From assembly GCF_011764425.1 (NCBI RefSeq), contig NZ_BLPF01000002.1:1054997-1118996 (forward strand): a stretch of 64,000 nucleotides of DNA, written 5' to 3'. The position numbers were made by a program, and so were the translations under genes. The notes beneath the pieces were generated by a model. That model saw only the letters and a list, made by a program, of their open reading frames with translations. It searched no databases and was not told the origin of the DNA. Origin of the DNA: Phytohabitans houttuyneae (GTDB taxonomy: Bacteria > Actinomycetota > Actinomycetes > Mycobacteriales > Micromonosporaceae). Positions 70 to 62,008 of the stretch are shown piece by piece; the first letter of the stretch is position 1; the number at the start of each line of letters is the position of its first letter.

Positions 70-83
70 GGGTCGTTCGACCC
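70..83. promoter_or_regulatory. DosR-box-like operator
   Basis: GGGTCGTTCGACCC is a perfect inverted repeat around TT (AGGGTCG/CGACCCT when flanking bases are included). It lies 67 bp before the ATG at 3 on the minus strand and overlaps the last codon of the 83-457 gene, so a terminator role is an alternative. Confidence 0.55.
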
Positions 84-457
84 TACAGCGTGTCCGGACG
101 GCACCCGACCAGGGCGGCCGAGTCGACGATGAGGTCGGCGTCGAGGCAGTCCATGACGTGTGCGGCTGCGGTGCCGTCCTGGTCTACCAGGACTGGTGTC
201 ACGCCTGCGTTGACGAGGCTGCGCAGAGTATCTCGTTCGGCGCGGCCGAACCGTCCGTCGTGCGCGGTGGAGGCAAGGCACACGAAGTCGTGCCGGGGCA
301 GGGAGTCGCGCAGGCCGGCGACGACCGCCTTGGCTGTGCTGAGCGTGCGGCACACCAGGACCGTCTCGGCGGTCGTGGCCAGCTCGCAGATCGGGGCCAG
401 TACCGGTGGTGTGGCAAGGCGGTCAACGTCGACGTCGACCCGGACGACCGCGAGCAT
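83..457 (-). CDS. Hypothetical protein, 124 aa, box-controlled
   Basis: I do not recognise the family. The protein is soluble, without signal peptide or membrane helix, and has alternating hydrophobic strands and helices (LAVVRVDVDVD near the start, TVLVCRTL and TPVLVDQDG in the middle) that suggest a small alpha/beta fold. The start at 457 is chosen because GGAGGTCGCCAC precedes it directly; an in-frame extension to 487 has no ribosome binding site. A DosR-like box at 559-572 lies about 100 bp upstream, and the gene follows a universal stress protein on the same strand. Function unknown; coding status is supported by the binding site, the box and the position. Confidence 0.6.
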   Translation of the reverse strand: MLAVVRVDVDVDRLATPPVLAPICELATTAETVLVCRTLSTAKAVVAGLRDSLPRHDFVCLASTAHDGRFGRAERDTLRSLVNAGVTPVLVDQDGTAAAHVMDCLDADLIVDSAALVGCRPDTL

Positions 458-558
458 GTGGCGACCTCCGTTGCGCACGGACCGCACGGTCCGTCATCCG
501 GTTCCAGCCAACCGTCGCGGTCCGTGCGTCCGCCAGTCCCGCTCGGCCCGCTCAGGTC

Positions 559-572
559 GGGACCTTTGGCCC
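559..572. promoter_or_regulatory. DosR-box-like operator
   Basis: GGGACCTTTGGCCC lies about 100 bp before the start at 457 (minus). It sits in non-coding DNA only if the upstream USP gene ends at 609, as proposed for that gene. In the uncorrected reading it would fall in an odd coding tail. Confidence 0.6.
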
Positions 573-608
573 TTGTCAAAGTCCGCCGGCTCGGGGACGG
601 AAGCCGGA

Positions 609-1399
609 CTAGCCAGCCAGTGCCTTCTCGCGCCGGTCCGCCGCGGGGGCACCGTGCTGCCGGCGTGGGCTACCAGCACTGGGCTGGCGGCATGGCGCAG
701 GACCGCCTGGGTGACCGGTCCGAGCAGCGTCGGCCGGTCGCCCCGCGCACCGACGACGATCAGTGACGCGGTCCACGACTCGCGGATGAGCGCGTCCTCG
801 GGTGGTCCGGCCACCATCCGATGCGCGGCGAGCCGCACCGCCTGCATCTCTCCTGGACACGGCGCCCCGCCGGCGTGCAGGACGACCAGGCCCGTGCGCC
901 GGCGCCGCGCGGCGACGACGGCCAGCCGCAGGGCCGCGTCCGCGTCCGGTGAACCATCCATGCCGACCACGACCGGACCCGCCCGTTCGTCCTCTCGCAC
1001 GAACATGACCGGTGTCGCCGTCCGGGCGGCGAGTTGGATGGAGACCGACGTTTGCGGCTCTGTGCCGAGTGCTGCGAGCCCATGCCCGCCCAGGACGAGC
1101 AGGGATGCGGGGGTCGCCGCACGGCGAAGCACCGAGACCGGTGCCCCGTCCACCACCGCGGCCGAGACCAGCAGGCCGGGCTCGACGGTTCGGGCGTACG
1201 CGGCCGCCGTTTCGACGGCCTCCTCTGCCTCCTCGCGCTCTTCTCCGTGACCGGACGTGAACAGCGGCCAGACAAACGCGTGCACCACGCGAAGCCACCC
1301 GCCGGCGGCGGCCGCTTCCCGGGCGCCGGCCCGCACCGTCGCCGCGTCCAACCCAAAGTCCTTCACACCGACAACCACGGTGGTCCCGCCGAACCTCAT
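609..1399 (-). CDS. Universal stress protein (tandem UspA), apparent frameshift near the 3' end
   Basis: Two UspA domains in tandem, the arrangement of the DosR-regulated mycobacterial USPs. Domain 1 begins TTVVVGVKDFG and domain 2 GPVVVGMDGSPD. The ATP-binding G-2x-G-9x-G(S/T) pattern is degenerate in both halves, so ATP binding is doubtful. The start at 1399 follows GGAGGTGGCGGCC. Taken literally the frame runs on to 494 with an unrelated Arg-rich tail. Adding one base to the G run at 645-649 gives a natural ending (PPAADRREKALAG then TAG at 609) of 263 residues and frees the box at 559-572. I infer a one-base sequencing loss. Confidence 0.85.
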
Positions 1400-1488
1400 G
1401 GCCGCCACCTCCATGTGCACTGGTCGACCGGGTAAACCCGGTTGACACCTATTTGTCGTAGCTAATCGCGCTGGCAGCCGCTGCAATA

Positions 1489-1502
1489 GGGCCTTGGTAC
1501 CC
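1489..1502. promoter_or_regulatory. Weak DosR-box-like site
   Basis: GGGCCTTGGTACCC, 90 bp before the USP start at 1399. The right half deviates (TACCC for GWCCC). Placement fits, but the match is poor. Confidence 0.3.
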
Positions 1503-1543
1503 GACCTCACTCGGTTCGGCGTGGCCGTATGGCCCGCCCACTC

Positions 1544-1557
1544 GGGACGATCGTCCA
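1544..1557. promoter_or_regulatory. DosR-box-like operator
   Basis: GGGACGATCGTCCA contains a perfect 12-bp palindrome (GGACGATCGTCC). It lies between the divergent USP (start 1399) and small ORF (start 1699), about 145 bp from each. Confidence 0.45.
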
Positions 1558-1598
1558 CTGGGCCGGATATGCGGCGCGTTCGGCCGCGACCGCTGCTG

Positions 1599-1612
1599 CG
1601 GACCTTCGGCCC
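1599..1612. promoter_or_regulatory. DosR-box-like operator
   Basis: CGGACCTTCGGCCC, 86 bp before the small plus-strand ORF at 1699. One mismatch to the common form in the first base. Confidence 0.5.
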
Positions 1613-1698
1613 GGCCAGAGGTGACGGCCGGCCCTGAAGCATCCGTGTGCTCCGAGTGTCCAATGGAGCGAGGAATCCACAGTGGAGGAGGTAGCGGC

Positions 1699-1851
1699 AT
1701 GTCGACCCGCGAGGCGCTTCAGCTGGCTCGGCACTATCAGGATGTCGCCCGGCGCAATCCTCACGAATCCCGATTCTGGACGGCGCGGTCGCTCTACTAT
1801 GGGCGGACGGCAATGCGGAACGGTCGGCTGCCGGGCCCGCCGCTCAGATGA
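1699..1851 (+). CDS. Small basic protein, 50 aa, unknown
   Basis: A short ORF with a very good ribosome binding site (GGAGGAGGT at 1684-1692, spacing 6) and a box at 1599-1612. The protein starts MSTREALQLARHYQDVARRN and continues with an aromatic, basic stretch around FWTARSLYYGR. It is probably helical and cytoplasmic. No family is recognised. Its last 8 bases overlap the 3' end of the convergent dsrE-like gene. I rate it as a real small member of the regulon on binding site and promoter grounds, not homology. Confidence 0.55.
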   Translation: MSTREALQLARHYQDVARRNPHESRFWTARSLYYGRTAMRNGRLPGPPLR

Positions 1852-2368
1852 ACAGCAGCTGCGCGCCCTCGGTCTTCTCGATGAAGTCGGCGGCGCTGAT
1901 GATGCCCTCCACGGCGTCGTAAAGGTCGGACTCGTCAAGACGCATCATGTCCGCGGACATGCGGCAAGCCCACAGGTGTCCACCGGAGGCCACGATCTGT
2001 TCCAGGAAGTCCGGCACCTCGGGCACGCCGATGTCGTGGATCTGCTTCTTCATCTGGTGGGTCGCGAGCGCGGTCATGCCGGGCAGTCCGCCCAGGCCCT
2101 GCGGCAGGTGGGTGGCGGTGTTGCCGAGCATGGTGAACTTCAGGTCCCGCATCCGGCTCCTGGTGATGATGTCGAAGCCCCAGAACGTGAAGAACAGGTG
2201 CGTCTCGACGCCCTCGCCCAGCGCGGCGTTGGCCAGGATCAGACCCGGGTACGCCATGTCGAGGTTGCCCTTGGAGCAGATGATCGCCAGCTTGCGGCCG
2301 GTCGGGGCGTCGTCGCCGAAGTCTGGCACGAGGCCCGGCCTGGGGCGGGTGGCTTCGTCGGTAGTCAT
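1844..2368 (-). CDS. DsrE/DsrF-family sulfur-relay-type protein
   Basis: 174 residues. The core starts KLAIICSKGNLDMAYPGLIL and continues through a long hydrophobic segment (VETHLFFTFWGFDII), typical of the DsrE2/DsrE3-like branch of the DsrE/F/H superfamily. Cysteines at about residues 32 (IICSKG) and 134 (WACRMS) are candidates for persulfide carriage. The start at 2368 is the first Met with an AAAGGCGG-like site upstream. It is the last gene of a three-gene minus-strand operon after sulfide:quinone oxidoreductase and a TusE-like protein. The inferred role is accepting or trafficking sulfane sulfur released by sulfide oxidation. The partner assignment is inference. Confidence 0.8.
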   Translation of the reverse strand: MTTDEATRPRPGLVPDFGDDAPTGRKLAIICSKGNLDMAYPGLILANAALGEGVETHLFFTFWGFDIITRSRMRDLKFTMLGNTATHLPQGLGGLPGMTALATHQMKKQIHDIGVPEVPDFLEQIVASGGHLWACRMSADMMRLDESDLYDAVEGIISAADFIEKTEGAQLLFI

Positions 2369-2381
2369 GTCATGCCGCCTT

Positions 2382-2696
2382 TCACACGCAGCCGCGGGGC
2401 TTGGGCAGTCCGGCGATGTAGGCCATCTTCTTGGCCGGCTTTTTGGGAAACAGCGCAAAGAGCTCCTTGACCGGGATGCTGGCCATGGTCGACACCCGAC
2501 GCAGCGTCGCGGTCTCGCCGTGCGCGACGAAGTCCTGGCGCAGGAAGCGGATCGGCGCCCAGTGCGCGTCGGTGAGCTCCAGCCCGATCGCCGCGGCAAG
2601 GAGCCGGGCGAGATCCTCGTTCCACTCGTCGTACTCGGTCAGGAAGCCCTCAGCGTCGACGTGCACTTCGGCGGTACCGATGGTCGTGACGGGCAT
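2382..2696 (-). CDS. TusE/DsrC-like sulfur carrier
   Basis: 104 residues, the size of TusE/DsrC. The C-terminus ends PKPRGCV, with the invariant penultimate cysteine that carries sulfur in this family. The residue 11 positions before it is Ala, so the second cysteine of true dissimilatory DsrC is absent and the protein resembles TusE/RspA types. The start at 2696 has GGAGGAGTAGCG immediately upstream. That site overlaps the restored end (TAG 2699-2701) of the sulfide:quinone oxidoreductase gene, which indicates translational coupling. It most likely hands persulfide sulfur between the quinone oxidoreductase and the DsrE-like protein. Confidence 0.82.
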   Translation of the reverse strand: MPVTTIGTAEVHVDAEGFLTEYDEWNEDLARLLAAAIGLELTDAHWAPIRFLRQDFVAHGETATLRRVSTMASIPVKELFALFPKKPAKKMAYIAGLPKPRGCV

Positions 2697-2698
2697 CG

Positions 2699-3945
2699 CT
2701 ACTCCTCCTCGGTCGGCGGCCGGCGCTTGCCGGCCATGGACATGTGCGCCGGAAGCGGGATCCGCCGGCCCGGCAGCAGCAGGTGCCAGTACATCCAACG
2801 GAACGCCAGCTTCCCCAGTGATTGCGGGCCGTCTCCCTCAGCAGCGCGAACGGCCCCACCACCGGCACGGGATAAGTACCGGGCAGCGGTTCGGTGTCGT
2901 AGTTGAAGTCGATCAGCAGCCCTTTGCCGTCGCCGGACTCCACGAAGCAGTTGGCGTGGCCGTCGAACCGGCCGGTCATCGGCAGGCCGTGGATGAGCTG
3001 TAGGAAGTTCTCGGTGAACACATCGACGGAGAAGTGGGCCACCGAGCCGGCCTTGGAAGTGGGGATATCGTTGGCGTCCCCGATGGCGAAGATGTTGTCG
3101 TACGTGCGTGACAGCATCGTGTGCCGGTCCACCGGCACGTAGTTGAGCTCGTCGCCGAGCCCGGAACGGGCTATGAAGTCGGCGCCCATGTTCAGTGGCA
3201 CGGTCACCAGCAGGTCGAACGGGATCACCCGGTCGTCGTAGGACACCAGCGCCTTGGCCTGCTCGTCGATTCGCTCGACCAGGAAGTCCGGCTCCACAAC
3301 GATGCCACGCTCATCGAGCATCGAGCCCAGGCGCGCCGACGCGATCGGCTTGGTGAACGCGCCCGGCAGGGGAGTGGCGTAAACGATCTCCACCCGGTCG
3401 CGGATGCCGCGGTGACGCAGATATGCCTCCACCAGGAAGGTGAACTCCAGCGGTGCGACCGGGCACTTGATCGGCAGGTCCACGATGTGCACCACCAGCC
3501 TGCCGCCGTCGAACCGCTGCAGGGCCTGCGCCAGGGCGGTCGCCCCGTCGAGGCTGTAGAAGTCGAAAACGCTCGTGCGCCACAACGACCCGAGCATGCC
3601 CGGGGTCTGCTCCGGGTGAGGGCTCGTGCCGGTCGCGATGACGAGAAAGTCGTAGGCGATCCGCTGCCCGTTCGCCAGCCTGACCTGGCTGGCATCCGCA
3701 TCGACCCGGTAAACCTCGCCGAGGACGAGCTCGACGCCGCGGGGCAGGAACTTCCGCCGCGGCTTCACCACCTGGCTCGGCCGGTACCTGCCGAACGGGA
3801 TGAACAGGAACCCGGGCTGGTACTGGTGAGTCTCGGTCTGGTCCACCACGGTGATCCGCCACTGCCGGCGGTCCAGCAGGCGGTGCAGCTTGTTGACCAC
3901 CATGGTGCCCGCTGTACCCGCGCCGAGGACCACGAGCCGCTTCAT
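2699..3945 (-). CDS. Sulfide:quinone oxidoreductase-type flavoprotein, apparent frameshift at the C-terminus
   Basis: FAD-dependent pyridine-nucleotide-disulfide family, oxidising sulfide and reducing quinone at the membrane. N-terminal Rossmann motif VVLGAGTAG (residues 5-13), second FAD motif IFAIGDANDIP near 285, and two redox-candidate cysteines at about residues 161 (IKCPVAP) and 333. The start at 3945 has GGAGGCGGAC upstream. In the given sequence the frame breaks after NHWG. One extra C in the run at 2813-2816 restores KLAFRWMYWHLLLPGRR and a stop at 2699, giving 415 residues and a membrane-binding C-terminal helix typical of SQR. A DosR-like box lies at 4016-4029. Substrate is inferred from family and from the sulfur-relay neighbours. 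Confidence 0.85.
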
Positions 3946-4015
3946 GTCCGCCTCCTCGTATACCCCCCGCCGTATCTCTCAAGGTCACCGTATGACGGCT
4001 ACCGCTGTTGGCTCA

Positions 4016-4029
4016 GGGTCGGAAGTCCC
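4016..4029. promoter_or_regulatory. DosR-box-like operator
   Basis: GGGTCGGAAGTCCC, 71 bp before the sulfide:quinone oxidoreductase start at 3945. The flank CCCGCAA resembles the outer part of the mycobacterial consensus. Confidence 0.65.
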
Positions 4030-4100
4030 GCAATTGTCGGCCAGCGGTCACCTAGCCGCGGTGCGGCGCCGGTGGCCCACTTGAACCCGCACGAGCCATC

Positions 4101-4128
4101 GGTCCCGGATTCGGGGACCAAATAGCCC
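4101..4128. promoter_or_regulatory. Imperfect DosR-like site and inverted repeat
   Basis: GGTCCC (4101-4106) and GGGACC (4114-4119) form an inverted repeat. GGGACCAAATAGCCC (4114-4128) resembles a box with one extra central base. It lies 53 bp before the USP start at 4181. Spacing is wrong for the family, so it is a weak call. Confidence 0.3.
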
Positions 4129-4180
4129 TGAGTGGCACGCGACGTGCCCTGCAGGCTGGAATGGTAGGGAGGTGGGCGTC

Positions 4181-5050
4181 ATGACAGCTGTTGTGGTCGG
4201 CGTGGACGGCTCGCCAGCCAGCACCGCTGCGGTCGCATTGGCGGTTCGCGTGGCCTCGGAGCGGCACCGCCCGGTCCGCGTCGTGCACGCTTTTGTGTGG
4301 CCGCTATTGCATGTACCGGTCGGGCCGTCCCCGTATGGACCGGCGGACGGCGGGCTGCGGCACGAGGCCGAGCGGATCGTCGGTGAGGCCGTGGCGTACG
4401 CCGAAACGTGTGACGCGAGGGTGAGCGTTTCGGGCGACGTGATCGCTGGAGGTGTCTCGGCGGTCCTCCTGGCCGCCTCGCGCCACGCCTTCGCCATCGT
4501 GCTCGGGGATCGTGGCCTGGGCGGGTTCACCGGCCTGATGGTCGGTTCGGTGGCGGTGCAGGTCGCCGCGCACGCCACCTGTCCGGTGTTGGTGGCCCGC
4601 GGCACGGCGCGCGAGAACGGCCCGGTCGTGGTGGGCGTGGACGGTTCGCCGAACTCGGACCGGGCCGTCGCGTTCGCGGCGGAGGAGGCCGTGCTGCGCA
4701 AGACCGATCTCCTCGCGGTGCACGCCTGGACCGGACCCGTCTCCACCCGCCCCGGCGACATGCGACCGCTGGTGTACGACCCCGAGCAGGTCGCCGAGGA
4801 CGAGTCCCGGGTGCTGTTCGAGGCGACCGCCGGCCTGAACGAACGCTATCCGGATCTCCTGGTGGGACACCGGGTGGTGCGCGGCCGGGCGGCACACACG
4901 ATGATCACCCAGTCGCACGGCGCGCAGCTGGTCGTGGTCGGCGCTCGCGGACGGGGCGGCTTCGCCGGGCTCCTGCTGGGGTCGGTGAGCCAAGGCCTGC
5001 TGCACCACGCGGAGTGCCCGGTCGCGATCGTCCGGCCAACGGCGGCCTGA
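4181..5050 (+). CDS. Universal stress protein (tandem UspA, ATP-binding type)
   Basis: 289 residues, two UspA domains (about 1-140 and 150-285). Both carry an intact nucleotide-binding pattern: GDRGLGGFTGLMVGS in domain 1 and GARGRGGFAGLLLGS in domain 2. This places it with ATP-binding USPs such as Rv2623, which links ATP level to growth arrest. The start at 4181 is used rather than the GTG at 4172 because GGAGGTGGG (4167-4175) is correctly spaced for it. Monocistronic; CorA follows after 205 bp. Confidence 0.9.
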   Translation: MTAVVVGVDGSPASTAAVALAVRVASERHRPVRVVHAFVWPLLHVPVGPSPYGPADGGLRHEAERIVGEAVAYAETCDARVSVSGDVIAGGVSAVLLAASRHAFAIVLGDRGLGGFTGLMVGSVAVQVAAHATCPVLVARGTARENGPVVVGVDGSPNSDRAVAFAAEEAVLRKTDLLAVHAWTGPVSTRPGDMRPLVYDPEQVAEDESRVLFEATAGLNERYPDLLVGHRVVRGRAAHTMITQSHGAQLVVVGARGRGGFAGLLLGSVSQGLLHHAECPVAIVRPTAA

Positions 5051-5255
5051 CCGCCGCCCTCACCCGGCCAGGAAGGTCGGGTCGGCGACCGTACCGCCAT
5101 GAACAGGTCGGCCGGTATGGGATCTGCCGTGCCTACGCCCAGCGGACTGAATGTGCCGGATGGCCCCGCGGTCAAGGCGCAACGGCCCTGGCCACGGGGA
5201 GACAGGAAGTCTGCAATGGTGGTGCCCGCATGGCATCGACGGAGGGAGGCGGTCC

Positions 5256-6326
5256 GTGCTGGACAACGACCTGCGTCAGCCAGAACCAGCTCCCACTGTC
5301 GCATTTCCATCCCTTGTGGACGCCGGAATTTACCGTGACGGCCGTCGGGTGGCCAGTGGTCCCGACCTCGCACAGACCTACCGGCTGTGGCGCCAGCTGC
5401 CCGGCGCGATGGCCTGGATCGGCCTTTACCAGGCTGAAGAAGCACAGATGCTGGCCGCGGCGAACGAGTTCGGCTTGCACGAGCTCGCCGTCGAGGACGC
5501 CATCAGGGCACACCAGCGGCCAAAGCTGGAGCGCTACGGCGATACGCTCTTCGTCGTCCTGCGCGCCGCGCGCTACCTGGACGAGACCGAGCAGGTCGAG
5601 TTCGGTGAGATCCACCTGTTCGTCGGACCTGGCTTCGTGCTGACCGTCCGGCACAGCCATGCGCCCGACCTGGCGGCCGTGCGGCGTCGGCTGGAAGCCG
5701 AGCCCCATCTGCTCGCGCACGGTCCGGAGGCCGTGTTGTACGCGATTCTGGACCGGGTCGTCGACGGGTATGCCCCGGTCGTGGCTGGCCTGCAGAACGA
5801 CATCGACGAGATTGAGACGCAGGTCTTCCTCGGCGACCCGCGAGTGTCCCGGCGCATCTACGAGCTGTCCCGGGAGGTCATTGAGTTTCAACGCGCCACG
5901 CATCCGCTGCTGGGTATGCTGGGCGCGCTCATGGCCGGATTCCAGAAGTACGGCATCGGCGAGGAGCTGCAGCGATACCTTCGGGATGTGGCTGACCACG
6001 CAACCGCGGTGGCCGAACGTGTGGACGGGTTCCGCCAGCTGCTCGCAGGCATCCTGGCGGTCAACGCCACACTGGTGTCGCAGGCGCAAAGCGAGAAGAT
6101 GGAACGGCTCACCGAGGCCAGCTACGCCCAGAACGAACAGATCAAGCGGATTTCGGCATGGGCCGCCATCCTCTTCGCACCGACGCTCATCGGCACCGTC
6201 TACGGGATGAACTTCCGGCACATGCCGGAACTGCGCTGGGCCGCCGGCTACCCGATGTCGCTTGCCCTCATGGCCGCGGTCTGCAGTGCCCTCTACCTGG
6301 CCTTCAAGCGTCGGGGGTGGCTGTAG
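5256..6326 (+). CDS. CorA-family Mg2+/Co2+ transporter
   Basis: 356 residues. A long acidic cytoplasmic N-terminal domain is followed by two C-terminal membrane helices (starting at ISAWAAILFAPTLIG and YPMSLALMAAVC). The diagnostic GMN motif (VYGMNF) stands at the end of the first helix. The family forms pentameric divalent-cation channels of the inner membrane. The GTG at 5256 is the chosen start: GGAGGGAGGCGG precedes it and the upstream in-frame residues look non-coding. No box is clear in the 205-bp gap behind it. Co-transcription with the preceding USP is possible. Confidence 0.9.
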   Translation: MLDNDLRQPEPAPTVAFPSLVDAGIYRDGRRVASGPDLAQTYRLWRQLPGAMAWIGLYQAEEAQMLAAANEFGLHELAVEDAIRAHQRPKLERYGDTLFVVLRAARYLDETEQVEFGEIHLFVGPGFVLTVRHSHAPDLAAVRRRLEAEPHLLAHGPEAVLYAILDRVVDGYAPVVAGLQNDIDEIETQVFLGDPRVSRRIYELSREVIEFQRATHPLLGMLGALMAGFQKYGIGEELQRYLRDVADHATAVAERVDGFRQLLAGILAVNATLVSQAQSEKMERLTEASYAQNEQIKRISAWAAILFAPTLIGTVYGMNFRHMPELRWAAGYPMSLALMAAVCSALYLAFKRRGWL

Positions 6327-6334
6327 CCCGGATC

Positions 6335-6348
6335 GGGACCTTGGTCCC
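6335..6348. promoter_or_regulatory. DosR-box-like operator (best class)
   Basis: GGGACCTTGGTCCC, symmetric except the central TT, 78 bp before the alcohol dehydrogenase start at 6426. The same 14-mer recurs before the P-type ATPase (42002) and PPDK (61995). Confidence 0.75.
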
Positions 6349-6425
6349 GCCGCCGGGTACGAGGCGGCCCTGCACCGCCGTGCCAAGGGCGGAGCAGGTT
6401 GAGGGCAGGACGTAAGGAGGCGCTC

Positions 6426-7466
6426 ATGAAGGCACTGGTCTACGGCGGGCCCGGACAGAAATCCTGGACCGAGGTCCCCGATCCCACCATCACCGATCCA
6501 CGGGACGCGATCATCGAGGTCGACACCGTGACGATCTGCGGTACGGACCTGCACATCCTCGCCGGCGACGTGCCCGCCGTCGAGCCGGGCCGCGTCCTCG
6601 GGCACGAGGCGGTGGGCACGGTGGTCGACATCGGCACCGGGGTCACCGGCCTCAACCGAGGAGACCGCGTGCTGGCCTCGTGCATCTCCGCCTGCGGCGT
6701 GTGCCGCTACTGCCGGTCCGGCAGCTACGGGCAGTGCCTGGGCGGCGGTGGCTGGATCCTCGGCCACCGGGTCAACGGCGTCCAGGCGCAGTACGCCAGG
6801 TTGCCGTTCGCCGACCTGTCCACCTATCGGCTGCCGGCGAACGTGACCGACGAGGCCGCGGTGATGCTGGCCGACATCCTGCCCACGTCGTACGAGGTGG
6901 GTGTGCTCAACGGCCAGGTGCGGCCCGGCGACACGGTGGTCGTGGTCGGGGTCGGGCCGATCGGGCTCGCCGCGATCCTCACCGCCCGGCTCTACTCGCC
7001 CTCGCACATCATCGCCGTCGACAAGGCGGCGAGCCGGCTGCAGGCGGCCAAGCAGTTCGGAGCGGACGTCGCCGTCAACGCCGACGAGGACCCGCTGGAA
7101 GTGGTGCGAGCGATCACCGGCGGGCTGGGCGCGGACGTCGTGATGGAGGCGGTCGGTACGCCGCAGGCGTTCGAGGCATGCACCACGCTCGTGCGTCCGG
7201 GCGGTCGCGTTGCCAACATCGGCGTGCACGGCAAGCCCGCGCTGCTGCACCTCGAGGACCTGTGGATCAAGAACGTGACGATCACGACCGGCCTCGTCGA
7301 CACGTACTCGACGCCGAACCTGCTGACCATGCTCGGCGCCGGTCAGCTGGACGTGAACCACATGATCACGCACCGGTTCGCACTCGACGACTTCATGGCC
7401 GCGTACGACGTGTTCTCCAAGCCGGCGGAGACCGGCGCGCTGAAGGTGGTCCTGTCACACAGCTAA
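6426..7466 (+). CDS. Zinc-dependent alcohol dehydrogenase (MDR family)
   Basis: 346 residues. The catalytic zinc site is seen in TICGTDLHIL and GHEAVG. The structural zinc loop has its four cysteines in CISACGVCRYC plus the downstream GQC. The NAD-binding Rossmann motif is VVGVGPIGLAA. It resembles the bacterial class reducing short aldehydes or oxidising secondary alcohols. Under oxygen limitation reduction of acetaldehyde to regenerate NAD+ would fit, and pyruvate formate-lyase lies at 50-52 kb. The start at 6426 follows AAGGAGG (6414-6420). It is box-controlled (6335-6348) and followed by a strong terminator. Confidence 0.9.
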   Translation: MKALVYGGPGQKSWTEVPDPTITDPRDAIIEVDTVTICGTDLHILAGDVPAVEPGRVLGHEAVGTVVDIGTGVTGLNRGDRVLASCISACGVCRYCRSGSYGQCLGGGGWILGHRVNGVQAQYARLPFADLSTYRLPANVTDEAAVMLADILPTSYEVGVLNGQVRPGDTVVVVGVGPIGLAAILTARLYSPSHIIAVDKAASRLQAAKQFGADVAVNADEDPLEVVRAITGGLGADVVMEAVGTPQAFEACTTLVRPGGRVANIGVHGKPALLHLEDLWIKNVTITTGLVDTYSTPNLLTMLGAGQLDVNHMITHRFALDDFMAAYDVFSKPAETGALKVVLSHS

Positions 7467-7479
7467 GCAGTTCGCCTCC

Positions 7480-7511
7480 GGCCTGCCGTTGCGTACACCG
7501 AACGGCAGGCC
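7480..7511. terminator. Bidirectional hairpin terminator
   Basis: Perfect 11-bp stem GGCCTGCCGTT/AACGGCAGGCC with a 10-base loop, between the convergent alcohol dehydrogenase and USP genes. There is no T tract, as usual in actinobacteria. Confidence 0.75.
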
Positions 7512-7517
7512 ACCGGT

Positions 7518-8333
7518 TCATAGCGCGGTGGGCACGATCACGACGGGGCACGCGGATCGGGCGGCTAACGCCGTCAGTATCGGTCCGGGCGACCCACCGT
7601 CCGCCGCGCGGGAGTGCGGCGCCGCGACCACCACAAGCTGGGCGGTGCGGGACGCCGCGGACAGCACGATCACCGCGTCCAGGCCGTGGCGCACCGCGAG
7701 CCGTACCGTCACATCCGGATACTTTTCGGACCAGGTCTCCAGCAGGTCGAGAAACGCACCCTCCGCGGCGCTCAACCTCTCCTGGCCCGGCGGGCTTGCC
7801 AGCGCCGGCCACAGGTGTACGGCCGTCAGCGGCGCGCAGCGTCGATCCGCGGCTGCGAAGGCGAAACGTATGGCTGCCTCGGAGCCGGCGGTGCCATCCA
7901 CCCCGACCAGGACCGGCGATCGTGTCGGAGCACGGGTGGCGGGCATGCCGGCCGGACAGATGACGACCGGCACGGTGGCCCGTCCGAGCACGGCGGCGGC
8001 CACCGATCCCAGTGCCGCGTTGGCGGCCCGCTTGCCGCGCCGGTGACCGCCGCGTCCGAGCGCCAGCAGGCTCGCCTCACTCGCGCGGGTTACCAGCGTC
8101 CCGGCGGGGTCTCCGTCGAGGACCTCGGTGTTGACCCGGAGCGCGGGATGCACCGCCCGGATGCGCTCGGAAGCGGTCTGCAGGATCTTCGCCGCCGGGC
8201 CGGCCGAAACGAGTACCAGCGTGAGGGGAGCCGACCACAGCGCGGCTTCAGCGGCCGCCAGCTCAAGCTCCGGTCTCGGGCTAGAGGAGCCGTCGACGCC
8301 GACGACGACCTCTTGTACGGGCTCGTGTGGCAT
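7518..8333 (-). CDS. Universal stress protein (tandem UspA, degenerate ATP motifs)
   Basis: 271 residues with two UspA domains (VVVGVDGSSSP near the start; VLVGVDGTAGSE near residue 145). The nucleotide-binding loops are altered: GRGGHRRGKRAANAALGS in domain 1 and no Gly-rich loop in domain 2 (VVAAPHSRAADG). It probably signals without binding ATP. The start at 8333 is preceded by GGAGGTACGCG; the longer upstream frame is Arg/Gly-rich and rejected. A box lies at 8386-8399. Confidence 0.87.
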   Translation of the reverse strand: MPHEPVQEVVVGVDGSSSPRPELELAAAEAALWSAPLTLVLVSAGPAAKILQTASERIRAVHPALRVNTEVLDGDPAGTLVTRASEASLLALGRGGHRRGKRAANAALGSVAAAVLGRATVPVVICPAGMPATRAPTRSPVLVGVDGTAGSEAAIRFAFAAADRRCAPLTAVHLWPALASPPGQERLSAAEGAFLDLLETWSEKYPDVTVRLAVRHGLDAVIVLSAASRTAQLVVVAAPHSRAADGGSPGPILTALAARSACPVVIVPTAL

Positions 8334-8385
8334 CGCGTACCTCCACCCTCTGCCTCCAGAGTGGGCCTCCGCTGGCTGGGCGAAC

Positions 8386-8399
8386 AGGGCCAAGGGCCC
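8386..8399. promoter_or_regulatory. DosR-box-like operator
   Basis: AGGGCCAAGGGCCC; on the minus strand it reads GGGCCCTTGGCCCT, with C in place of A/T at the inner position of each half. It is 53 bp before the USP start at 8333. Confidence 0.5.
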
Positions 8400-8515
8400 G
8401 TGATGCGGACGCCGTTGGCCCCCCGCTGCTGCTGCCGAGCGGCTCTGGGAACCACACCGCCAACGGCGCAGGCTGTGGTGACAGATCCGCCGGACCGGGA
8501 GACCTTTGGTAGCCA

Positions 8516-9952
8516 CTAGGAACCGCGACCTGCGACCTTCACGCCATCACAGAGGACGGTTGTCGCCCGCAGCATCGCCCACTCCCGCCGCATCCCCGCG
8601 AGGAGGACCGGCAGGTCGGGGAAACGGTCCGCATCCACGTGGACGGTGATGGCCAGCGTCCCGGCATACGACACGGCTAGGAAAGATACGCCGAGGTTGC
8701 CGGCGAGGTTGCCGATCGGCAGCACGTCCAGTATCGGTGTCCCCAGCACGTGGACCGGTACCGGCGGTCCCGGGACGTTGCTCTCCACGAAGTGGATCAT
8801 CCGTTGGTGCCGGCTGAAATAGTTCGCGATACCCATCCGCGCCAGCCAGATGAGCAGCACGTTTCCGGCGGTGGGCGGCTGGTCGCGCTTCGCGCGTGCG
8901 GACTCGACCGCGATCGAGCCGAGCCGGGCCGCGGGATCCGGTTCTCCCGCGGGTAACCGGACAACGAACCCCCCGGTGCGGTTGCCGCCGCCGTCTAACG
9001 CCTCCGCGGAGGTCCGTAGTGACATCGCGACGGTGGCGTGCAGCCACAGCCCGTCCAGCGACTCGCCGCGGGTGTGCAGCAGCGCCCGCACGCCGGCCGT
9101 CGCGAGGCTCAGGACGACGTCGTTGACCTTCCCGCCGTGCCGGTGCGCCACCTGTTTGGCCTCGACCAGGTCGACGCGCATCACCGCCAGGCGCCTGCGG
9201 GGGCCGATTGGAGCGTTCAGTGAGGTCCGCGCTGCGTGCCGCAGTGTGGCGATCATCCGCCAGTGGCCGCGTACCATCCCGGCAAGCTGGCGGGGACCGA
9301 CCCGCCGGGGAGGCTGCCGGACGGCGGCCAGGCGGGCGCGTAGGTTGTCCGCCACCAGCGTGCTCCAGCTGGGCGCAGGGACCGGCACCCACCGTGGTAC
9401 CGGCCCATCCGTTTCTGGCAGCGCCCGCTCAAGAGTGGACAGGACCAGCCGGATGGCCGCCAGCCCATCGGCGAGGACATGGTGCAGCTTGACCAGGATC
9501 GCCACGCGGCCTTCAGCCAGCCCGGTCAGCAACCACATCCGCCACAACGGGTGTGCGCGGTCCAGCGGCCCGCTCATAAGCTGAGCGGCCAGACGAAGCA
9601 GCTGCGCCTGGTCTCCCGGCCACGGCACCCGCGCCGTCAACACGTGCCGGTCGACGTCGAACGCGCAGTCGTCGACCCAGACCGGCCGGCCAGCCAGTGG
9701 ACCGGCCGAGCGGATCACCCGGCGCAGCGGCGGTGCGGACACCAGCGCCCGTTCGACGGCCTGCCGGATGGTGGCAACGGACGGGCCGCCCTCGCCTCCG
9801 TGTGCCGCCGGGCGGTCCAGAACCAGAACGGCACCGATCGTCATCGGGGCGGCCGGAGTCTCGACCGCAAGGTTGATCATGTCGAACGCGTTGAGGCGCT
9901 CCGGTCGCGTATGCCGGCCGTTCTGGACTGCAAAGCTCTCGATCTCGATCAC
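8516..9952 (-). CDS. Wax ester synthase/diacylglycerol acyltransferase (Tgs1-like)
   Basis: 478 residues, full length for the WS/DGAT family that makes triacylglycerol or wax esters from acyl-CoA at the membrane or lipid body. The catalytic HHxxxDG motif is present as HHVLADG. The N-terminal signature RLNAFDMINLAVETPAAPM corresponds to the family opening (RLsxxDxxFLxxE.P). Its DosR-regulated relative tgs1 of M. tuberculosis stores TAG during hypoxia. The GTG at 9952 is the start with modest support (GAGGGG upstream); the Met at residue 25 would cut into the conserved region. Two boxes lie upstream. Confidence 0.9.
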   Translation of the reverse strand: MIEIESFAVQNGRHTRPERLNAFDMINLAVETPAAPMTIGAVLVLDRPAAHGGEGGPSVATIRQAVERALVSAPPLRRVIRSAGPLAGRPVWVDDCAFDVDRHVLTARVPWPGDQAQLLRLAAQLMSGPLDRAHPLWRMWLLTGLAEGRVAILVKLHHVLADGLAAIRLVLSTLERALPETDGPVPRWVPVPAPSWSTLVADNLRARLAAVRQPPRRVGPRQLAGMVRGHWRMIATLRHAARTSLNAPIGPRRRLAVMRVDLVEAKQVAHRHGGKVNDVVLSLATAGVRALLHTRGESLDGLWLHATVAMSLRTSAEALDGGGNRTGGFVVRLPAGEPDPAARLGSIAVESARAKRDQPPTAGNVLLIWLARMGIANYFSRHQRMIHFVESNVPGPPVPVHVLGTPILDVLPIGNLAGNLGVSFLAVSYAGTLAITVHVDADRFPDLPVLLAGMRREWAMLRATTVLCDGVKVAGRGS

Positions 9953-9996
9953 CGCCCCTCACCGCCATGTTCGGCAGCGAGGAGCGGGCAGCGGCA

Positions 9997-10010
9997 GGGC
10001 CCAAAGACCC
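9997..10010. promoter_or_regulatory. DosR-box-like operator
   Basis: GGGCCCAAAGACCC, 45 bp before the WS/DGAT start at 9952 (minus). Confidence 0.6.
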
Positions 10011-10045
10011 GGGAGTTCGGGAGGGGCAATATGGTCCCCCACGGC

Positions 10046-10059
10046 GGGACCGCGGTCCC
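10046..10059. promoter_or_regulatory. DosR-box-like operator, perfect palindrome
   Basis: GGGACCGCGGTCCC is fully symmetric over 14 bp. It lies 90 bp before the lipoprotein start at 10149 and also upstream of the divergent WS/DGAT gene. Confidence 0.65.
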
Positions 10060-10148
10060 CAAAGGAGCGGCCATTCGCCCCGCCTCGATGGGTGGCATGC
10101 GACATACCGTGGTGCTGTTACCCCCGCTAGCACCTGGGTAGGTGCGTC

Positions 10149-10790: not shown

Positions 10791-10810
10791 GGTGGGAGGC
10801 CGAGGTCAGC

Positions 10811-10942
10811 ATGGTGCTCAAGGTGGACGTACCACGCACGCTGATCCGCGGAGACGTGGACGAAGGATACGGCCCGGTGGCCGACGCCTTCCGGCGCAAC
10901 TTCGCCGAGCGCGACGCCGGCGGGACGGGAACGGCCGTGTGA
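10811..10942 (+). pseudogene. N-terminal remnant of a serine hydrolase (beta-lactamase/EstB-like)
   Basis: The 43-residue ORF contains VDEGYGPVADAFRRNFAERD, which resembles the opening of actinobacterial serine hydrolases of the beta-lactamase/esterase B class, as I recall the family. It then stops, before the SxxK catalytic region. Three bases later the 3' end of the convergent nitroreductase begins. It reads as a gene truncated when the nitroreductase block arrived or by deletion. No alternative frame continues the homology. Confidence 0.5.
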
Positions 10943-10945
10943 GGA

Positions 10946-11920: not shown

Positions 11921-11922
11921 GG

Positions 11923-12192: not shown

Positions 12193-12223
12193 GACCGGAC
12201 CTCCTTGACCTGCTCGCCGGGGA

Positions 12224-13009: not shown

Positions 13010-13063
13010 GACCCGCCTCCTTCGCTTGGTCTCAGCGTGCGGCGCGCGTACCCGCTGCGGGTA

Positions 13064-14795: not shown

Positions 14796-14806
14796 TACAG
14801 TGCCGG

Positions 14807-49219: not shown

Positions 49220-49233
49220 GGGACCTTCGACCC
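49220..49233. promoter_or_regulatory. DosR-box-like operator
   Basis: GGGACCTTCGACCC, 37 bp before the PNPOx-family start at 49270; preceded by TTC as in the mycobacterial consensus. Confidence 0.65.
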
Positions 49234-52664: not shown

Positions 52665-52692
52665 GACTTCCTCCATCGGTCGGGTGGCGGCG

Positions 52693-53160
52693 TCAGGCCG
52701 CAGGGGTGAGAACGGGGGCGGGCTCCGTTGCCCGTGCGGTGGCGACGACCAGGACGGCCGGGTGGCGATGATGGGTCAACTGCCGGGCGAGCGTGGCGGG
52801 AAGGCTTTTACGGCGCAGGCCGTTCGCGGTGTCGCTGCCGATCACCACGACGTCGGCGATGGTGGCCGCATGGCTGAGCGCGGTGACAGGTTCGGCGAGC
52901 ACCAGCTCGCGGACGATCGGTGGGCGCGGGGACAGGCCGGCCGCGGCCTCGGCTATGCGGTCGCGCTGCATGCGGTGCAGATCCAGCCGCGCCTCGAACA
53001 GCGCGTCCCGGTCGCGGGCTGCCGCCCGATCGCGGTCTGGCCAGGCCGTCACGACCAGGACGCTGGCGCCGATGCGCGCCGCTTCCCGCACCGCCCACCA
53101 CAACGCGTCGCGGGCGGCCGCTGACGCGTCGAGTCCCACGACGATCCGTTGCTGTGCCAT
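52693..53160 (-). CDS. Single-domain universal stress protein
   Basis: 155 residues: [20 protein letters not shown] at the start, [22 protein letters not shown] in place of the ATP loop (degenerate) and PAVLVV at the end. The start at 53160 follows AGGGAGGGTCAG. First gene of the operon with pflB and pflA; box at 53216-53229. Confidence 0.85.
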
Positions 53161-53215: not shown

Positions 53216-53229
53216 GGGCCACAAGTCCC
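53216..53229. promoter_or_regulatory. DosR-box-like operator
   Basis: GGGCCACAAGTCCC, 56 bp before the USP-pflB-pflA operon (53160). Confidence 0.6.
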
Positions 53230-56847: not shown

Positions 56848-56861
56848 GGGACCATCGGCCC
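56848..56861. promoter_or_regulatory. DosR-box-like operator
   Basis: GGGACCATCGGCCC, 79 bp before the fusion gene start at 56769. Confidence 0.6.
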
Positions 56862-57245: not shown

Positions 57246-57259
57246 CAGGGCCGGCAGTC
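57246..57259. promoter_or_regulatory. DosR-box-like operator
   Basis: GGGCCGGCAGTCCC, 66 bp before the hibernation factor start at 57180. Confidence 0.6.
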
Positions 57260-57267
57260 CCGCCCGA

Positions 57268-57281
57268 GCCGGTCCTTGGTC
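57268..57281. promoter_or_regulatory. DosR-box-like operator
   Basis: CGGTCCTTGGTCCC, 97 bp before the CBS-BON start at 57378 and 8 bp from the preceding site. Confidence 0.5.
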
Positions 57282-57377
57282 CCCCCAGCCGCGGCACCTC
57301 GGCACTGACGCGGAGGTGGCGGCGGGCTCTACGGTCAAGACGAGAGATGAAACGACGGCCAGAAAGCGAGGCGGACG

Positions 57378-58815: not shown

Positions 58816-59211
58816 TCAGGCTCGTTCGACGACCAGGCGCCGTGCGCGCAGCAGGCGAGCCCACCAGGGGCGGCCGCTTGGTCTGAGGGCCGGTGCGGGC
58901 ACGCCCTTGATGCTCACCCAGCCTCCGGGTCCCATGTGGACGGATCCGACGGCGGGCCGGCCGCGGCGGCTGACCGCGACCGCCGTGACGGCGGCGACCA
59001 CCGTGGCGGCGGCCAGAATCTCGCGGACGTCGAACGCCGGTCGATAGTGGACCGTGCCGCGACCGACCACGTATGCGCCGATCGGCCGCGGGACGGCGCC
59101 GCCGCGCAGCACCGGTACCAGAATCGTTGGCTCGGGGCCGGGCAGGGTGACCGGCGGTCCCACCGGATCGGTCTGCGGGCCCTGGTCCGGGCGGACGATG
59201 GTGTCGAGCAT
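58816..59211 (-). CDS. Small membrane-associated protein downstream of PPDK, unknown
   Basis: 131 residues. Pro-rich N-terminus, a central hydrophobic helix (ILAAATVVAAVTAVAVS, about 65-81) and a basic C-terminus with WVSIKG and RPWWARLLRARRLVV. No family recognised. The start at 59211 has TAGGAGGCAAGCG, which spans the PPDK stop region (59222), so it is co-transcribed with PPDK. Confidence 0.65.
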   Translation of the reverse strand: MLDTIVRPDQGPQTDPVGPPVTLPGPEPTILVPVLRGGAVPRPIGAYVVGRGTVHYRPAFDVREILAAATVVAAVTAVAVSRRGRPAVGSVHMGPGGWVSIKGVPAPALRPSGRPWWARLLRARRLVVERA

Positions 59212-59221
59212 CGCTTGCCTC

Positions 59222-61900
59222 CTAACGGCTGTCGGATCCGGCCGCCGCGGTGGCGACCGCGGCGCGGCCGGCCTCCAGGCGGGCGATCGGGACCCGGAAG
59301 GGCGAGCAGGACACGTAGTCCAGGCCGACGGTGTGGAAGAAGTGGATGGAGTCGGGGTCGCCGCCGTGCTCGCCGCAGACGCCGATCTTCAGGTCCGGGC
59401 GGGCGGCCCAGCCCTCGTCCGCGGCGATCCGCACCAGGCGGCCCACGCCGGGCTCGTCGATTGACTCGAACGGGGAGACGCCGAAGATGCCCATCCCGAG
59501 GTAGCGGGGGAAGAAGGTGCCCTCCACGTCGTCGCGGGAGAAGCCCCAGCCGAGCTGGGTCAGGTCGTTGGTGCCGAAGGAGAAGAACTCCGCGGCACCG
59601 GCGATCTCGCCGGCCGTCACGGCCGCCCGCGGTACCTCGATCATCGTGCCGATCCGGACGTGTGGCAGGCCGCCGACCTCGTCGAGGATGCGTTCGGCCT
59701 CGGCCCGCACGGCCTCCAGCTCCTGCACGGCCGCGACCAGCGGCACCATGATCTCCGGCCGCGGCGACAGCCCGCGCGCGGTGCAGTCGGCGGCCGCCTC
59801 CGCGATCGCCCGCACCTGCATGGCAAACAGGCCGGGCACCACCAGGCCGAGCCGCACGCCGCGCAGCCCGAGCATGGGGTTCTGCTCGTGCATCCGCCGC
59901 ACGGCAACCAGCAGTGCGCCGTCCCGCCCGGGGTCCTGGCCGAGTGCCTCGGCCCGGGCCACCCGCGCGGTCAGCTCTTCCAGGGGTGGCAGGAACTCGT
60001 GCAGCGGCGGGTCCAGCAGCCGCACCGTGACCGGCAGCCCGTCCATCGCCTCGAAGATCTCCACGAAGTCGCCGCGCTGCAGCGGCAGCAGTGCCGCCAG
60101 TGCGTCCTGCCGCTCCTGGTCCGTCTCGGCGAGGATCAGCCGCTCGACGAGGGCGCGGCGGGCGCCGAGGAACATGTGCTCGGTGCGGCACAGGCCGACC
60201 CCCTCGGCCCCGAACCGCCGGGCCCGGGCCGCGTCAGCACCGGTGTCGGCGTTCGCGCGCACCTCCAGCCGCCGCGTCCGGTCGGCGTGCAACATCAGCC
60301 GGTGTACCGCGTCCAGCAGGCCGTCCTGCCCGGATGGCACCTCGCCCTCGAAGTAGCGGGCGACGGGGGAGGGGTGTACCGGCACCTCGCCGAGGAACAC
60401 CTCGCCGGTGGCGCCGTCGATGGACACCACGTCCCCTTCGACCACGACCGTGCCATCCACAGTGAACTGTCCACCGTCGGTGTCCACGGCGAGCGCGTCC
60501 GCGCCGCACACGCAGGTCTTGCCCATGCCGCGTGCCACCACGGCGGCGTGTGAGGTCTTCCCGCCGCGAGAGGTGAGGATGCCCTGTGCGGCGATCATGC
60601 CAGGCAGGTCGTCCGGGTTGGTCTCTCGGCGCACGAGGATGACCTTCTCGCCGGCCGCCGCCCGCTGCACCGCCCGGCCCGCGTCGAACACCACCCGGCC
60701 GCTCGCGGCTCCCGGCGAGGCCGGGACGCCGACGGCGAGCGGTGCGGGCGCGGCCGCGCGGTCGAAGCTCGGGAACATGAGGTGGGCCAGCTGGGCGCCG
60801 GAAACGCGGCGCAGCGCCTCGTCCATGTCGATGACACCCTCGTCGACCAGCTGCGCGGCGATCGTGAACGCCGCCGCCGGGGTGCGCTTGCCCACCCGGG
60901 TCTGCAGCATCCACAGCGTGCCGCGTTCGATCGTGAACTCGATGTCGCACAGGTCCCGGTAGTGGTGCTCCAGCTTGTCCATGATGGACAGCAGCTGGTG
61001 GTACGAGCGCGGGTCGATGCGCTCCAGCCGCTGCAGTGGCACGGTGTTGCGGATGCCGGCGACCACGTCCTCGCCCTGAGCGTTGGACAGGTAGTCGCCG
61101 TAGACGCCGCGTACGCCGGTGGCCGGGTCGCGGGTGAACGCCACACCGGTGCCCGAGTCGGAACCGAGGTTGCCGAAGACCATGGCCATCACGTTGACGG
61201 CCGTGCCGAGGTCTTGCGGGATCCGCTCCTGCCGGCGGTACAGCACCGCGCGTTCGGTGTTCCACGACGCGAACACCGCCTCGATCGCCAGGTACAGCTG
61301 CTCGTGGGGCGCCTGCGGGAAGTCGCGCCCGGTGTGGTCGGCGAAGACCTTCTTGTACACCTCCACGAGGTGGTGCAGGTCCGCCTCACCCAGCTCGGCG
61401 TCGGTGGCCACGCCGGCGTGCGAGCGGTGGGCGGCGAGCTCGCGTTCGAACGCTTCGCCAGGCACCCCGCACACCGTCTTGCCGAACATGCCGATCAGTC
61501 GCCGGTACGAGTCCCAAGCGAACCGCGGATCGCCGCTCTGCGCGGCCAGCCCGTGCACGCTCACGTCGGTCAGCCCGATGTCCAGGACCGTGTCCATCAT
61601 CCCGGGCATGGAAAACTTCCCGCCCGAGCGCACGGACAGCAGCAGCGGGTCGGCCGGGTCGCCCAATGTCTTGCCCAGCCGGTCCTCGACAAGCCGAAGG
61701 TGCGCGTTCACCTGGTCGAAGAGCCCCGCCGGCACGGTGCCGGCGGCCAGGTACGCGCGGCACGCCTCGGTGCTGATCGTGAACCCCGGCGGCACCGGCA
61801 ACCCCAAGCGGGTCATCTCGGCCAGGTTCGCGCCCTTGCCGCCCAGCAGGTCCTTGAGGTCCTTGCCACCCTCCACGAAGTCGAACACATACTTGGCCAT
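59222..61900 (-). CDS. ppdK: Pyruvate phosphate dikinase
   Basis: 892 residues. ATP-grasp domain with LLGGKGANLAEMTRLGLPVPPGF at the start, the mobile phospho-His domain with GGKTSHAAVVARGMGK (His about 453), and the PEP/pyruvate TIM barrel with FGTNDLTQLGWGFSRDD and the catalytic Cys-Gly region IGVCGEHGGDP. It interconverts pyruvate + ATP + Pi and PEP + AMP + PPi; under energy limitation it allows PPi-linked glycolysis or gluconeogenic PEP supply. The start at 61900 (MAKYVF). Best-class box 95 bp upstream. Confidence 0.96.
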   Translation of the reverse strand: MAKYVFDFVEGGKDLKDLLGGKGANLAEMTRLGLPVPPGFTISTEACRAYLAAGTVPAGLFDQVNAHLRLVEDRLGKTLGDPADPLLLSVRSGGKFSMPGMMDTVLDIGLTDVSVHGLAAQSGDPRFAWDSYRRLIGMFGKTVCGVPGEAFERELAAHRSHAGVATDAELGEADLHHLVEVYKKVFADHTGRDFPQAPHEQLYLAIEAVFASWNTERAVLYRRQERIPQDLGTAVNVMAMVFGNLGSDSGTGVAFTRDPATGVRGVYGDYLSNAQGEDVVAGIRNTVPLQRLERIDPRSYHQLLSIMDKLEHHYRDLCDIEFTIERGTLWMLQTRVGKRTPAAAFTIAAQLVDEGVIDMDEALRRVSGAQLAHLMFPSFDRAAAPAPLAVGVPASPGAASGRVVFDAGRAVQRAAAGEKVILVRRETNPDDLPGMIAAQGILTSRGGKTSHAAVVARGMGKTCVCGADALAVDTDGGQFTVDGTVVVEGDVVSIDGATGEVFLGEVPVHPSPVARYFEGEVPSGQDGLLDAVHRLMLHADRTRRLEVRANADTGADAARARRFGAEGVGLCRTEHMFLGARRALVERLILAETDQERQDALAALLPLQRGDFVEIFEAMDGLPVTVRLLDPPLHEFLPPLEELTARVARAEALGQDPGRDGALLVAVRRMHEQNPMLGLRGVRLGLVVPGLFAMQVRAIAEAAADCTARGLSPRPEIMVPLVAAVQELEAVRAEAERILDEVGGLPHVRIGTMIEVPRAAVTAGEIAGAAEFFSFGTNDLTQLGWGFSRDDVEGTFFPRYLGMGIFGVSPFESIDEPGVGRLVRIAADEGWAARPDLKIGVCGEHGGDPDSIHFFHTVGLDYVSCSPFRVPIARLEAGRAAVATAAAGSDSR

Positions 61901-61994
61901 CACCAGGCCGCCTCTCGCCTCGACGCAGGTCGTCACCTCTGTGGTACCAACGCGGGGCAGGCGGGGTGTAGGGCCGATCGGCTTCGTGCGGCGG

Positions 61995-62008
61995 GGGACC
62001 TTGGTCCC
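61995..62008. promoter_or_regulatory. DosR-box-like operator (best class)
   Basis: GGGACCTTGGTCCC, 95 bp before PPDK (61900) and directly after the ArsR-type gene stop (62021). Confidence 0.72.

Follow-up and report, generated by a model that had tools for sequence, protein, structure and literature searches.

The window treated here, meaning the whole 64-kb stretch of DNA that was analysed, comes from Phytohabitans houttuyneae, whose 11.34-Mb genome is assembled in five contigs; its place there is C2:1054997-1118996. It carries repeated copies of a 14-bp palindrome, searched for in the strict form GGGHCN4GDCCC and called the box below. The Mycobacterium tuberculosis DosR consensus has the same half-sites and the same spacer length, and sites of the DosR/OsdR type turn on low-oxygen survival genes in M. 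tuberculosis and Streptomyces.

Sixty open reading frames (ORFs) of the window were scanned against Pfam and ten against NCBIfam. Nine ORFs contain universal stress protein (USP) domains; two encode Hsp20 proteins, two CBS-BON proteins, five nitroreductase-family proteins, one a WS/DGAT acyltransferase and one an Rv2632c-like protein. USP, Hsp20, CBS, nitroreductase-family and WS/DGAT proteins are the classes of the M. tuberculosis DosR/DevR regulon, and all are present among the 60 ORFs. The window also holds NiFe hydrogenase genes (25503-30457, plus strand), whose best NCBIfam matches include sulfhydrogenase subunits, all under cut-offs, together with HypF, HypC, HypD and an AIRS-domain (HypE-type) protein. 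Further genes encode cytochrome bd oxidase subunits II and I (30984-33410, minus), pyruvate formate-lyase activase, pyruvate formate-lyase and a USP (49684-53160, minus), pyruvate phosphate dikinase (59222-61903, minus), GAPDH, and a protein with GNAT and acyl-CoA-synthetase domains.

Boxes and the genes behind them

The strict pattern has 18 matches in the window. The original prediction gave 22 positions, which include all 18; three more (23045, 47771 and 57268) fit with one mismatch, and two of the coordinates were off by two bases (57246 is 57248 and 57268 is 57270). The last one, 8386-8399, is the palindrome GGGCC-AAG-GGCCC, with a 3-base spacer unlike the strict pattern. The figure of about thirty copies is reached only by adding one-mismatch sites 20-125 bp 5' of called starts, of which the window has 14 more, against 3.3 per 64 kb of background. 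This background consists of 52 sampled 20-kb tiles of the same genome (1.04 Mb, no N).

No strand is assigned to any box. At the left end, GGGTCGTTCGACCC (70-83) stands 111 bp 5' of a start called in the left flank, and GGGACCTTTGGCCC (559-572) stands 101 bp 5' of ORF 83-457 (minus). Box GGGTCGGAAGTCCC (4016-4029) precedes by 70 bp the sulfide-quinone-reductase-like, DsrC-like and DsrE-like genes (minus); 220 bp to the other side a USP gene begins. As predicted, GGGACCTTGGTCCC occurs three times exactly: at 6335-6348, 77 bp 5' of a zinc alcohol dehydrogenase gene; at 42002-42015, 57 bp 5' of a P-type ATPase gene (minus); and at 61995-62008, 91 bp 5' of pyruvate phosphate dikinase (minus). The WS/DGAT and USP genes (minus) are preceded by GGGCCCAAAGACCC (9997-10010) at 44 bp and GGGACCGCGGTCCC (10046-10059) at 93 bp. 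Box GGGACCTTGGACCC (15464-15477) lies 100 bp 5' of ORF 14920-15363 (minus) and has weak partners at 23 and 24 bp; GGGCCGGAGGTCCC (18577-18590) lies 61 bp 5' of a nitroreductase-family gene (minus), and GGGACCTTCGTCCC (23126-23139) 51 bp 5' of the second Hsp20 gene (plus).

Four divergent gene pairs share a box: Hsp20 (minus) and CBS-BON (plus) at GGGCCGTCCGACCC (19094-19107); PhoU (minus) and NiFe hydrogenase (plus) at GGGCCGGTAGACCC (25454-25467), with the one-mismatch partner GGGGCGTTGGGCCC (25432-25445) 22 bp away; cytochrome bd (minus) and hypF (plus) at GGGCCGAAAGACCC (33509-33522); and an S30AE-like gene (minus; just under the match cut-off) and CBS-BON (plus) at GGGCCGGCAGTCCC (57248-57261), with the one-mismatch partner CGGTCCTTGGTCCC (57270-57283), again at 22 bp. 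The one-mismatch box GGGACCTTCGCCCC (47771-47784) lies before the Rv2632c-like and GAPDH genes (plus). Box GGGACCTTCGACCC (49220-49233) is 36 bp 5' of a pyridoxamine-phosphate-oxidase-like gene (plus), GGGCCACAAGTCCC (53216-53229) is 55 bp 5' of the USP, pyruvate formate-lyase and activase genes (minus), and GGGACCATCGGCCC (56848-56861) is 78 bp 5' of the gene with GNAT and acyl-CoA-synthetase domains (minus). Several USP and nitroreductase-family genes of the window are without a box.

The predicted placement, mostly intergenic and close 5' of start codons, is borne out. Gene calls came from a crude script, used bare for the promoter-zone count and with three ORF stretches added by hand for the intergenic count. 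By these calls, 15 of the 18 strict boxes lie entirely between genes, compared with 5 of the 20 background sites; boxes 70, 559 and 42002 touch ORF ends, 559 solely through a hand-added ORF end, and 42002 overlaps the final codons of a gene. Box centres fall 20-125 bp 5' of a called start in 17/18 cases, against 3/20 in the background; this promoter zone was set after the distances had been seen and covers 9.6% of the window. The sole box outside it by the call on the window is 70, where the left-flank ORF has no Pfam match. Crude transcription units were then grouped with two ORF stretches added by hand, the short called ORF 14807-14971 dropped, and the weak boxes 47771, 57270, 25432 and 24671 added to the strict ones. 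A strict or weak box heads 21 of 40 such units, covering 32 of 62 genes (22/41 units if the P-type ATPase unit is split at box 42002).

Density, spacing and pairing

The comparison with the rest of the genome had been set beforehand as a check, and it favours the window. The entire genome holds 249 strict sites (444 for the control pattern read backwards); the window is 0.56% of its length and holds 18 of them, where 1.4 are expected (binomial p 1e-14), so it is about 13 times denser than the average. Background tiles have 20 strict sites, or 1.2 per 64 kb, and dinucleotide shuffles of the window give an expectation of 3.6 (standard deviation 1.9, maximum 10 in 100 shuffles). For a stricter core, GGGACCTTNGDCCC, 7 of the 13 genomic copies are inside the window (p 3e-13).

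Spacing is equally specific. With half-sites fixed and the spacer varied from 0 to 15, spacer 4 gives 18 sites in the window and every one of the other 15 lengths gives 0-4; in the background tiles spacer 4 is not raised (20, against 19-46 at other spacers). The GGGNC-N4-GNCCC sites expected of a DosR regulon are thus present and enriched at spacer 4. An independent matrix, to which 26 published S. coelicolor OsdR sites and nothing from the window contributed, scores 16 window sites at 10 or higher, where 1.7 are expected from the tiles. At lower scores the enrichment drops (22 against 5.4 at 8; 82 against 47 at 4), because the matrix scores non-strict sites too.

The spacer centre proposed as distinctive, CTTG or CTTC, occurs in 6/18 strict sites; site 559 has CTTT, bringing CTTN to 7/18, and the other sites differ. 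Nor is CTTC new: in the published S. coelicolor OsdR site table, AGGGACCTTCGGCCCC, with a CTTC centre, precedes SCO0216 and SCO0167 (PMC5069765).

Promoters read in gene orientation hinted at a second, weaker box near the first. Across offsets of 14-70 bp, the mean match peaked at 22 bp, both for the window and for the 210 sites, among the matches listed, that lie near dosR in named records. With a partner cut-off of 8 of the 10 defined positions, a partner at 21-24 bp accompanies 9/18 window boxes, 89/210 sites near named dosR and 0/20 background sites. Other four-base offset blocks give 0-5/18 in the window, where blocks 19-22 and 23-26 overlap the peak offsets, and 12-31/210 at the named sites. 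The 21-24 bp block was picked after a profile that included the window and the named loci had been seen. Offset 14 is also high on mean matches, with few sites at 8/10 (0/36 and 18/420). The at least 80 named loci behind the 210 sites are related, some coming from one genome or contig, so 89/210 does not represent 210 independent trials. A strong box with an adjacent weak box is a feature of DosR regulons: in M. tuberculosis, a high-affinity site and an adjacent low-affinity site that are bound co-operatively have been described (PMC3029386, PMC4973870), and the paired boxes of the window recall these pairs.

Regulator, kinase and related genomes

A GerE profile search and the listed part of the motif map converge on C1:192-198 kb, on another contig. 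Among the matches listed, four strict sites are grouped there and a fifth lies at 187 kb. The region encodes, at C1:196871-197512, a DosR homologue of 213 residues, whose best solved match is M. tuberculosis DevR (3c3w, E 9e-74). In this alignment D54, T82 and the recognition-helix positions LAEKTVKNYVS are identical, so that the phospho-acceptor Asp and the DNA-contact helix of a close DosR homologue are in place; the numbers and roles of D54, T82, K179, K182 and N183 in DosR are presumed here and were placed on the alignment. It is the one full-length close DosR/DevR homologue found in the genome, while the window is on C2. Boxes at C1:197549 and C1:197682 lie between dosR and a divergent nitroreductase-family gene, so the regulator's own gene is also preceded by boxes. 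Its closest named matches come from Micromonospora, Couchioplanes, Actinoplanes and relatives, at 88-94% identity (among the matches listed). A second DosR copy, at C2:255364-255915 (in L019), is 99% identical, lacks the first 28 residues and is perhaps a partial duplicate; the ORF upstream of it looks USP-like by eye.

Next to the C1 dosR stands an intact GAF-GAF kinase of the DosS/DosT type. Its best solved matches are DevS GAF domains and 2vzw ("probable histidine kinase response regulator"); the DevS GAF domains are matched by its first GAF domain. There the haem-histidine and distal-tyrosine positions are conserved, presumably His149 and Tyr171, both of which match, and haem binding is predicted.

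The window has a DosS-like kinase of its own (GAF, HisKA_3 and HATPase; 21119-22375, minus), whose reading frame breaks inside its first GAF domain, a little upstream of where the haem histidine would be; no box was found at its head. Taken over 21119-22843 (minus), it is a paralogue of the intact C1 kinase (L032:5162-6862), 90% identical over 1.7 kb. The pair forms a mosaic, with perfect or near-perfect identity at about 21480-21769 and 22017-22813 alongside diverged tracts, a pattern that gene conversion or an assembly mix-up could leave. The hydrogenase small-subunit gene (27780-28700, plus) has a normal start and then loses its frame, as judged by eye and from a partial Pfam match; the large subunit is intact. 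Since this is a second broken frame beside that of the kinase, reading errors are possible in the window, and both breaks may be of this kind.

Across 150 genomes of the family, compared without correction for relatedness, the core motif tracks the regulator. Genomes with a close DosR (n=124) have 3.23 core motifs on average and those without (n=26) 1.12 (Mann-Whitney p 5.7e-7), DosR being counted as absent if none of the 20 candidates scored in a genome matched at E<=1e-70; the reversed control motif gives 1.27 and 1.19 (p 0.35). Genome G077, of the same genus, has neither a close DosR nor the core motif. At least G081, scored as lacking DosR but with 10 motifs, may hold a missed DosR. G055 has 22 core motifs, against 13 in the genome of the window, and a reversed-control count of zero.

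Orthologs were compared in two genomes of the same genus, G057 and G103, over 21 pairs of at least 65% identity whose match starts within the first five residues; another comparison used a looser filter (45% identity, start within 40 residues). Boxes were scored in the loose form GGGNCN4GNCCC. Nine pairs have a box in both members, four at the window gene only, two at the relative only and six at neither. Distances from box to start, window first, are close for alcohol dehydrogenase (77/78, G057), P-type ATPase (57/57, G103), pyridoxamine oxidase (36/37, G057; 36/36, G103), the S30AE-like gene (67/69), CBS-BON (116/118) and pyruvate phosphate dikinase (91/90, G103). The test is supportive, not decisive. 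Near dosR in named records, among the matches listed, at least 210 sites have spacer 4, and the other spacers in the range 0 to 8 have 41-85.

A predicted regulon island and its alternatives

The palindromes are best read, with a probability of about 0.88, as predicted binding sites for the DosR/DevR (OsdR) homologue of this genome; on that reading the window is a dormancy or low-oxygen regulon island. The independent OsdR matrix, the spacing, the promoter position, the co-occurrence across the family, the ortholog distances and the gene classes agree on this. In the original prediction one DosR-type regulator controlled most operons here; the DosR-type sites, the gene classes and the homologue fit such a regulator, and the share of units, 21 of 40, makes it about half, not most.

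The proposed mechanism takes binding, phosphorylation, the oxygen signal and induction from homology. Falling oxygen would cause a DosS-type haem-GAF kinase to phosphorylate DosR at the equivalent of Asp54. Phosphorylated DosR dimers would bind the strong GGGNC-N4-GNCCC box, some 27-116 bp 5' of the start codon. At roughly half of the boxes they would also bind, co-operatively, a weaker box at a distance of two DNA turns (about 22 bp). The targets switched on would include universal stress proteins, Hsp20, CBS-BON proteins, a nitroreductase-family protein and WS/DGAT lipid storage, and further cytochrome bd, NiFe hydrogenase, pyruvate formate-lyase and pyruvate phosphate dikinase.

Several results weigh against this interpretation. 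The regulator gene lies outside the island, where in S. coelicolor and M. tuberculosis it is usually inside, although location within the island was not counted as defining. About half of the crude transcription units are without a box, and a TANNNT -10 element at a common distance was found in 0/23 site-gene pairs at offsets 26-36, with three matches in all. Among the 124 genomes with DosR, 13 have zero core motifs, and G091 has one. The cytochrome bd box is shifted, from 98 bp in the window to 125 bp in G057, and to 134 and 99 bp in G103. No box was found within 150 bp for PhoU (G057, G103), acyl-CoA synthetase (G103) or CBS-BON (G057), and retention of a box within 150 bp (9/13, against 2/8 where the window gene has none) gives a Fisher p of 0.063. 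In the pyruvate formate-lyase clusters of relatives that were compared, box density is not clearly raised: for five from other genera spacer 4 gives 15 sites and the other spacers (0-8) give 4-14, and for two from the same genus spacer 4 gives 17 and the others 2-18, with 18 at spacer 0, so box density alone is not clearly conserved. Other dense clusters of strict sites are also possible elsewhere in the genome, whose site positions are those among the matches listed.

The most serious competitor, itself improbable, is that another LuxR/NarL-type response regulator with a similar half-site reads the boxes and that DosR has few of them. In its favour, 150 of 231 candidates for a GerE domain in the genome were scored and at least 124 match at E<=0.001; after the close homologue, the nearest DosR relatives encoded there are about 41-45% identical to it. 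However, the number of motifs in genomes of the family goes with the presence of a close DosR homologue, G077 of the same genus has neither, the helix residues of the C1 protein match those of DevR, and dosR itself is preceded by the same boxes. Chance or base composition is the least credible explanation. The genome is about 70-72% GC, the 1.04 Mb of background contains 20 matches, 15 of them touching called genes, and of 19 permuted half-sites, two have more window matches than the strict motif (23 and 21) and a third has the same number (18). Those three are frequent in the background, with 388, 228 and 260 occurrences per 1.04 Mb against 20 for GGGHC; the shuffles, the spacing, the promoter position and the whole-genome count all tell against chance.

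That the palindromes are RNA hairpins or intrinsic terminators instead of protein-binding sites is very unlikely, a little less so than chance. A GC-rich inverted repeat could fold in RNA, but the boxes stand 5' of genes, several of them between divergent genes, and partners at 21-24 bp suit a protein on two DNA turns. The terminator reading was rejected when none of nine terminator-like sites coincided with the nine strict boxes in a scan of positions 1-20000 of the 64 kb.

DosR control thus remains the preferred reading, and it places the window within a known type of system, the DosR/OsdR regulon; the pattern is real and unusually dense. With M. tuberculosis the window shares a DevR homologue and a DevS-type kinase on the genome, and a high-affinity site with an adjacent low-affinity site (PMC3029386). 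It differs in a spacer tendency of S-W-W-S against T-W-W-A and in having the regulator outside the island. The sulfhydrogenase-like gene set (NCBIfam matches under cut-offs) resembles that of Mycobacterium smegmatis. The hydrogenase of that species is reportedly under DosR control.

The S. coelicolor OsdR/OsdK regulon (SCO0167-SCO0219) has the 16-nt palindrome AGGGCCGATCGGCCCT (PMC5069765). Its half-sites and spacer length are identical to those here, single sites have a CTTC centre, genes for USP, nitroreductase-family protein, pyruvate phosphate dikinase, alcohol dehydrogenase and pyridoxamine-phosphate oxidase lie nearby, and a site precedes osdR itself (PMC5069765). There are also differences: osdRK lies within the S. 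coelicolor region, whereas the intact pair here is on another contig; S. coelicolor has nitrate reductase, and the window pyruvate formate-lyase, NiFe hydrogenase and cytochrome bd; the S. coelicolor consensus spacer is GATC, and CTTN occurs here in 7/18 sites.

In the collection of papers searched, nothing joined DosR, hypoxia and Micromonosporaceae, and nothing joined pyruvate formate lyase, DevR and Streptomyces. The useful points are how dense the island is, its standing apart from its regulator, its anaerobic genes and the 22-bp rule for paired boxes. The dormancy switch known from Mycobacterium and Streptomyces is extended to a dense island in Micromonosporaceae; its likely targets are widened to fermentation and hydrogen metabolism through pyruvate formate-lyase and NiFe hydrogenase; and the 21-24 bp spacing rule could sharpen regulon prediction in other actinomycetes. 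A tentative and rather doubtful extension goes further: a compact dormancy island split from its regulator might follow an actinomycete-wide promoter grammar, in which a strong and a degraded box are phased two turns (~22 bp) apart; DosR would then act as a tetramer on a single face of the DNA, and each gene's threshold would be set by how strong its second box is. Its bolder part takes the broken mosaic kinase of the window for a possible relic or spare of a DosS/DosT-like two-sensor arrangement.

Two minor observations concern the window and its flanks. The gene at 2650-3945 (minus) matches the NCBIfam entry "type III sulfide quinone reductase, selenoprotein subtype" at 576 bits (cut-off 525) and adjoins the DsrC- and DsrE-like genes. 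Strict boxes also occur outside the window: on the left flank at L035:8425 and L035:18119, one about 200 bp before a Ser/Thr protein kinase gene and one between USP and CBS genes, and on the right at L037:6532, 26 kb distant, between a phosphoketolase gene and a VTC-domain gene.

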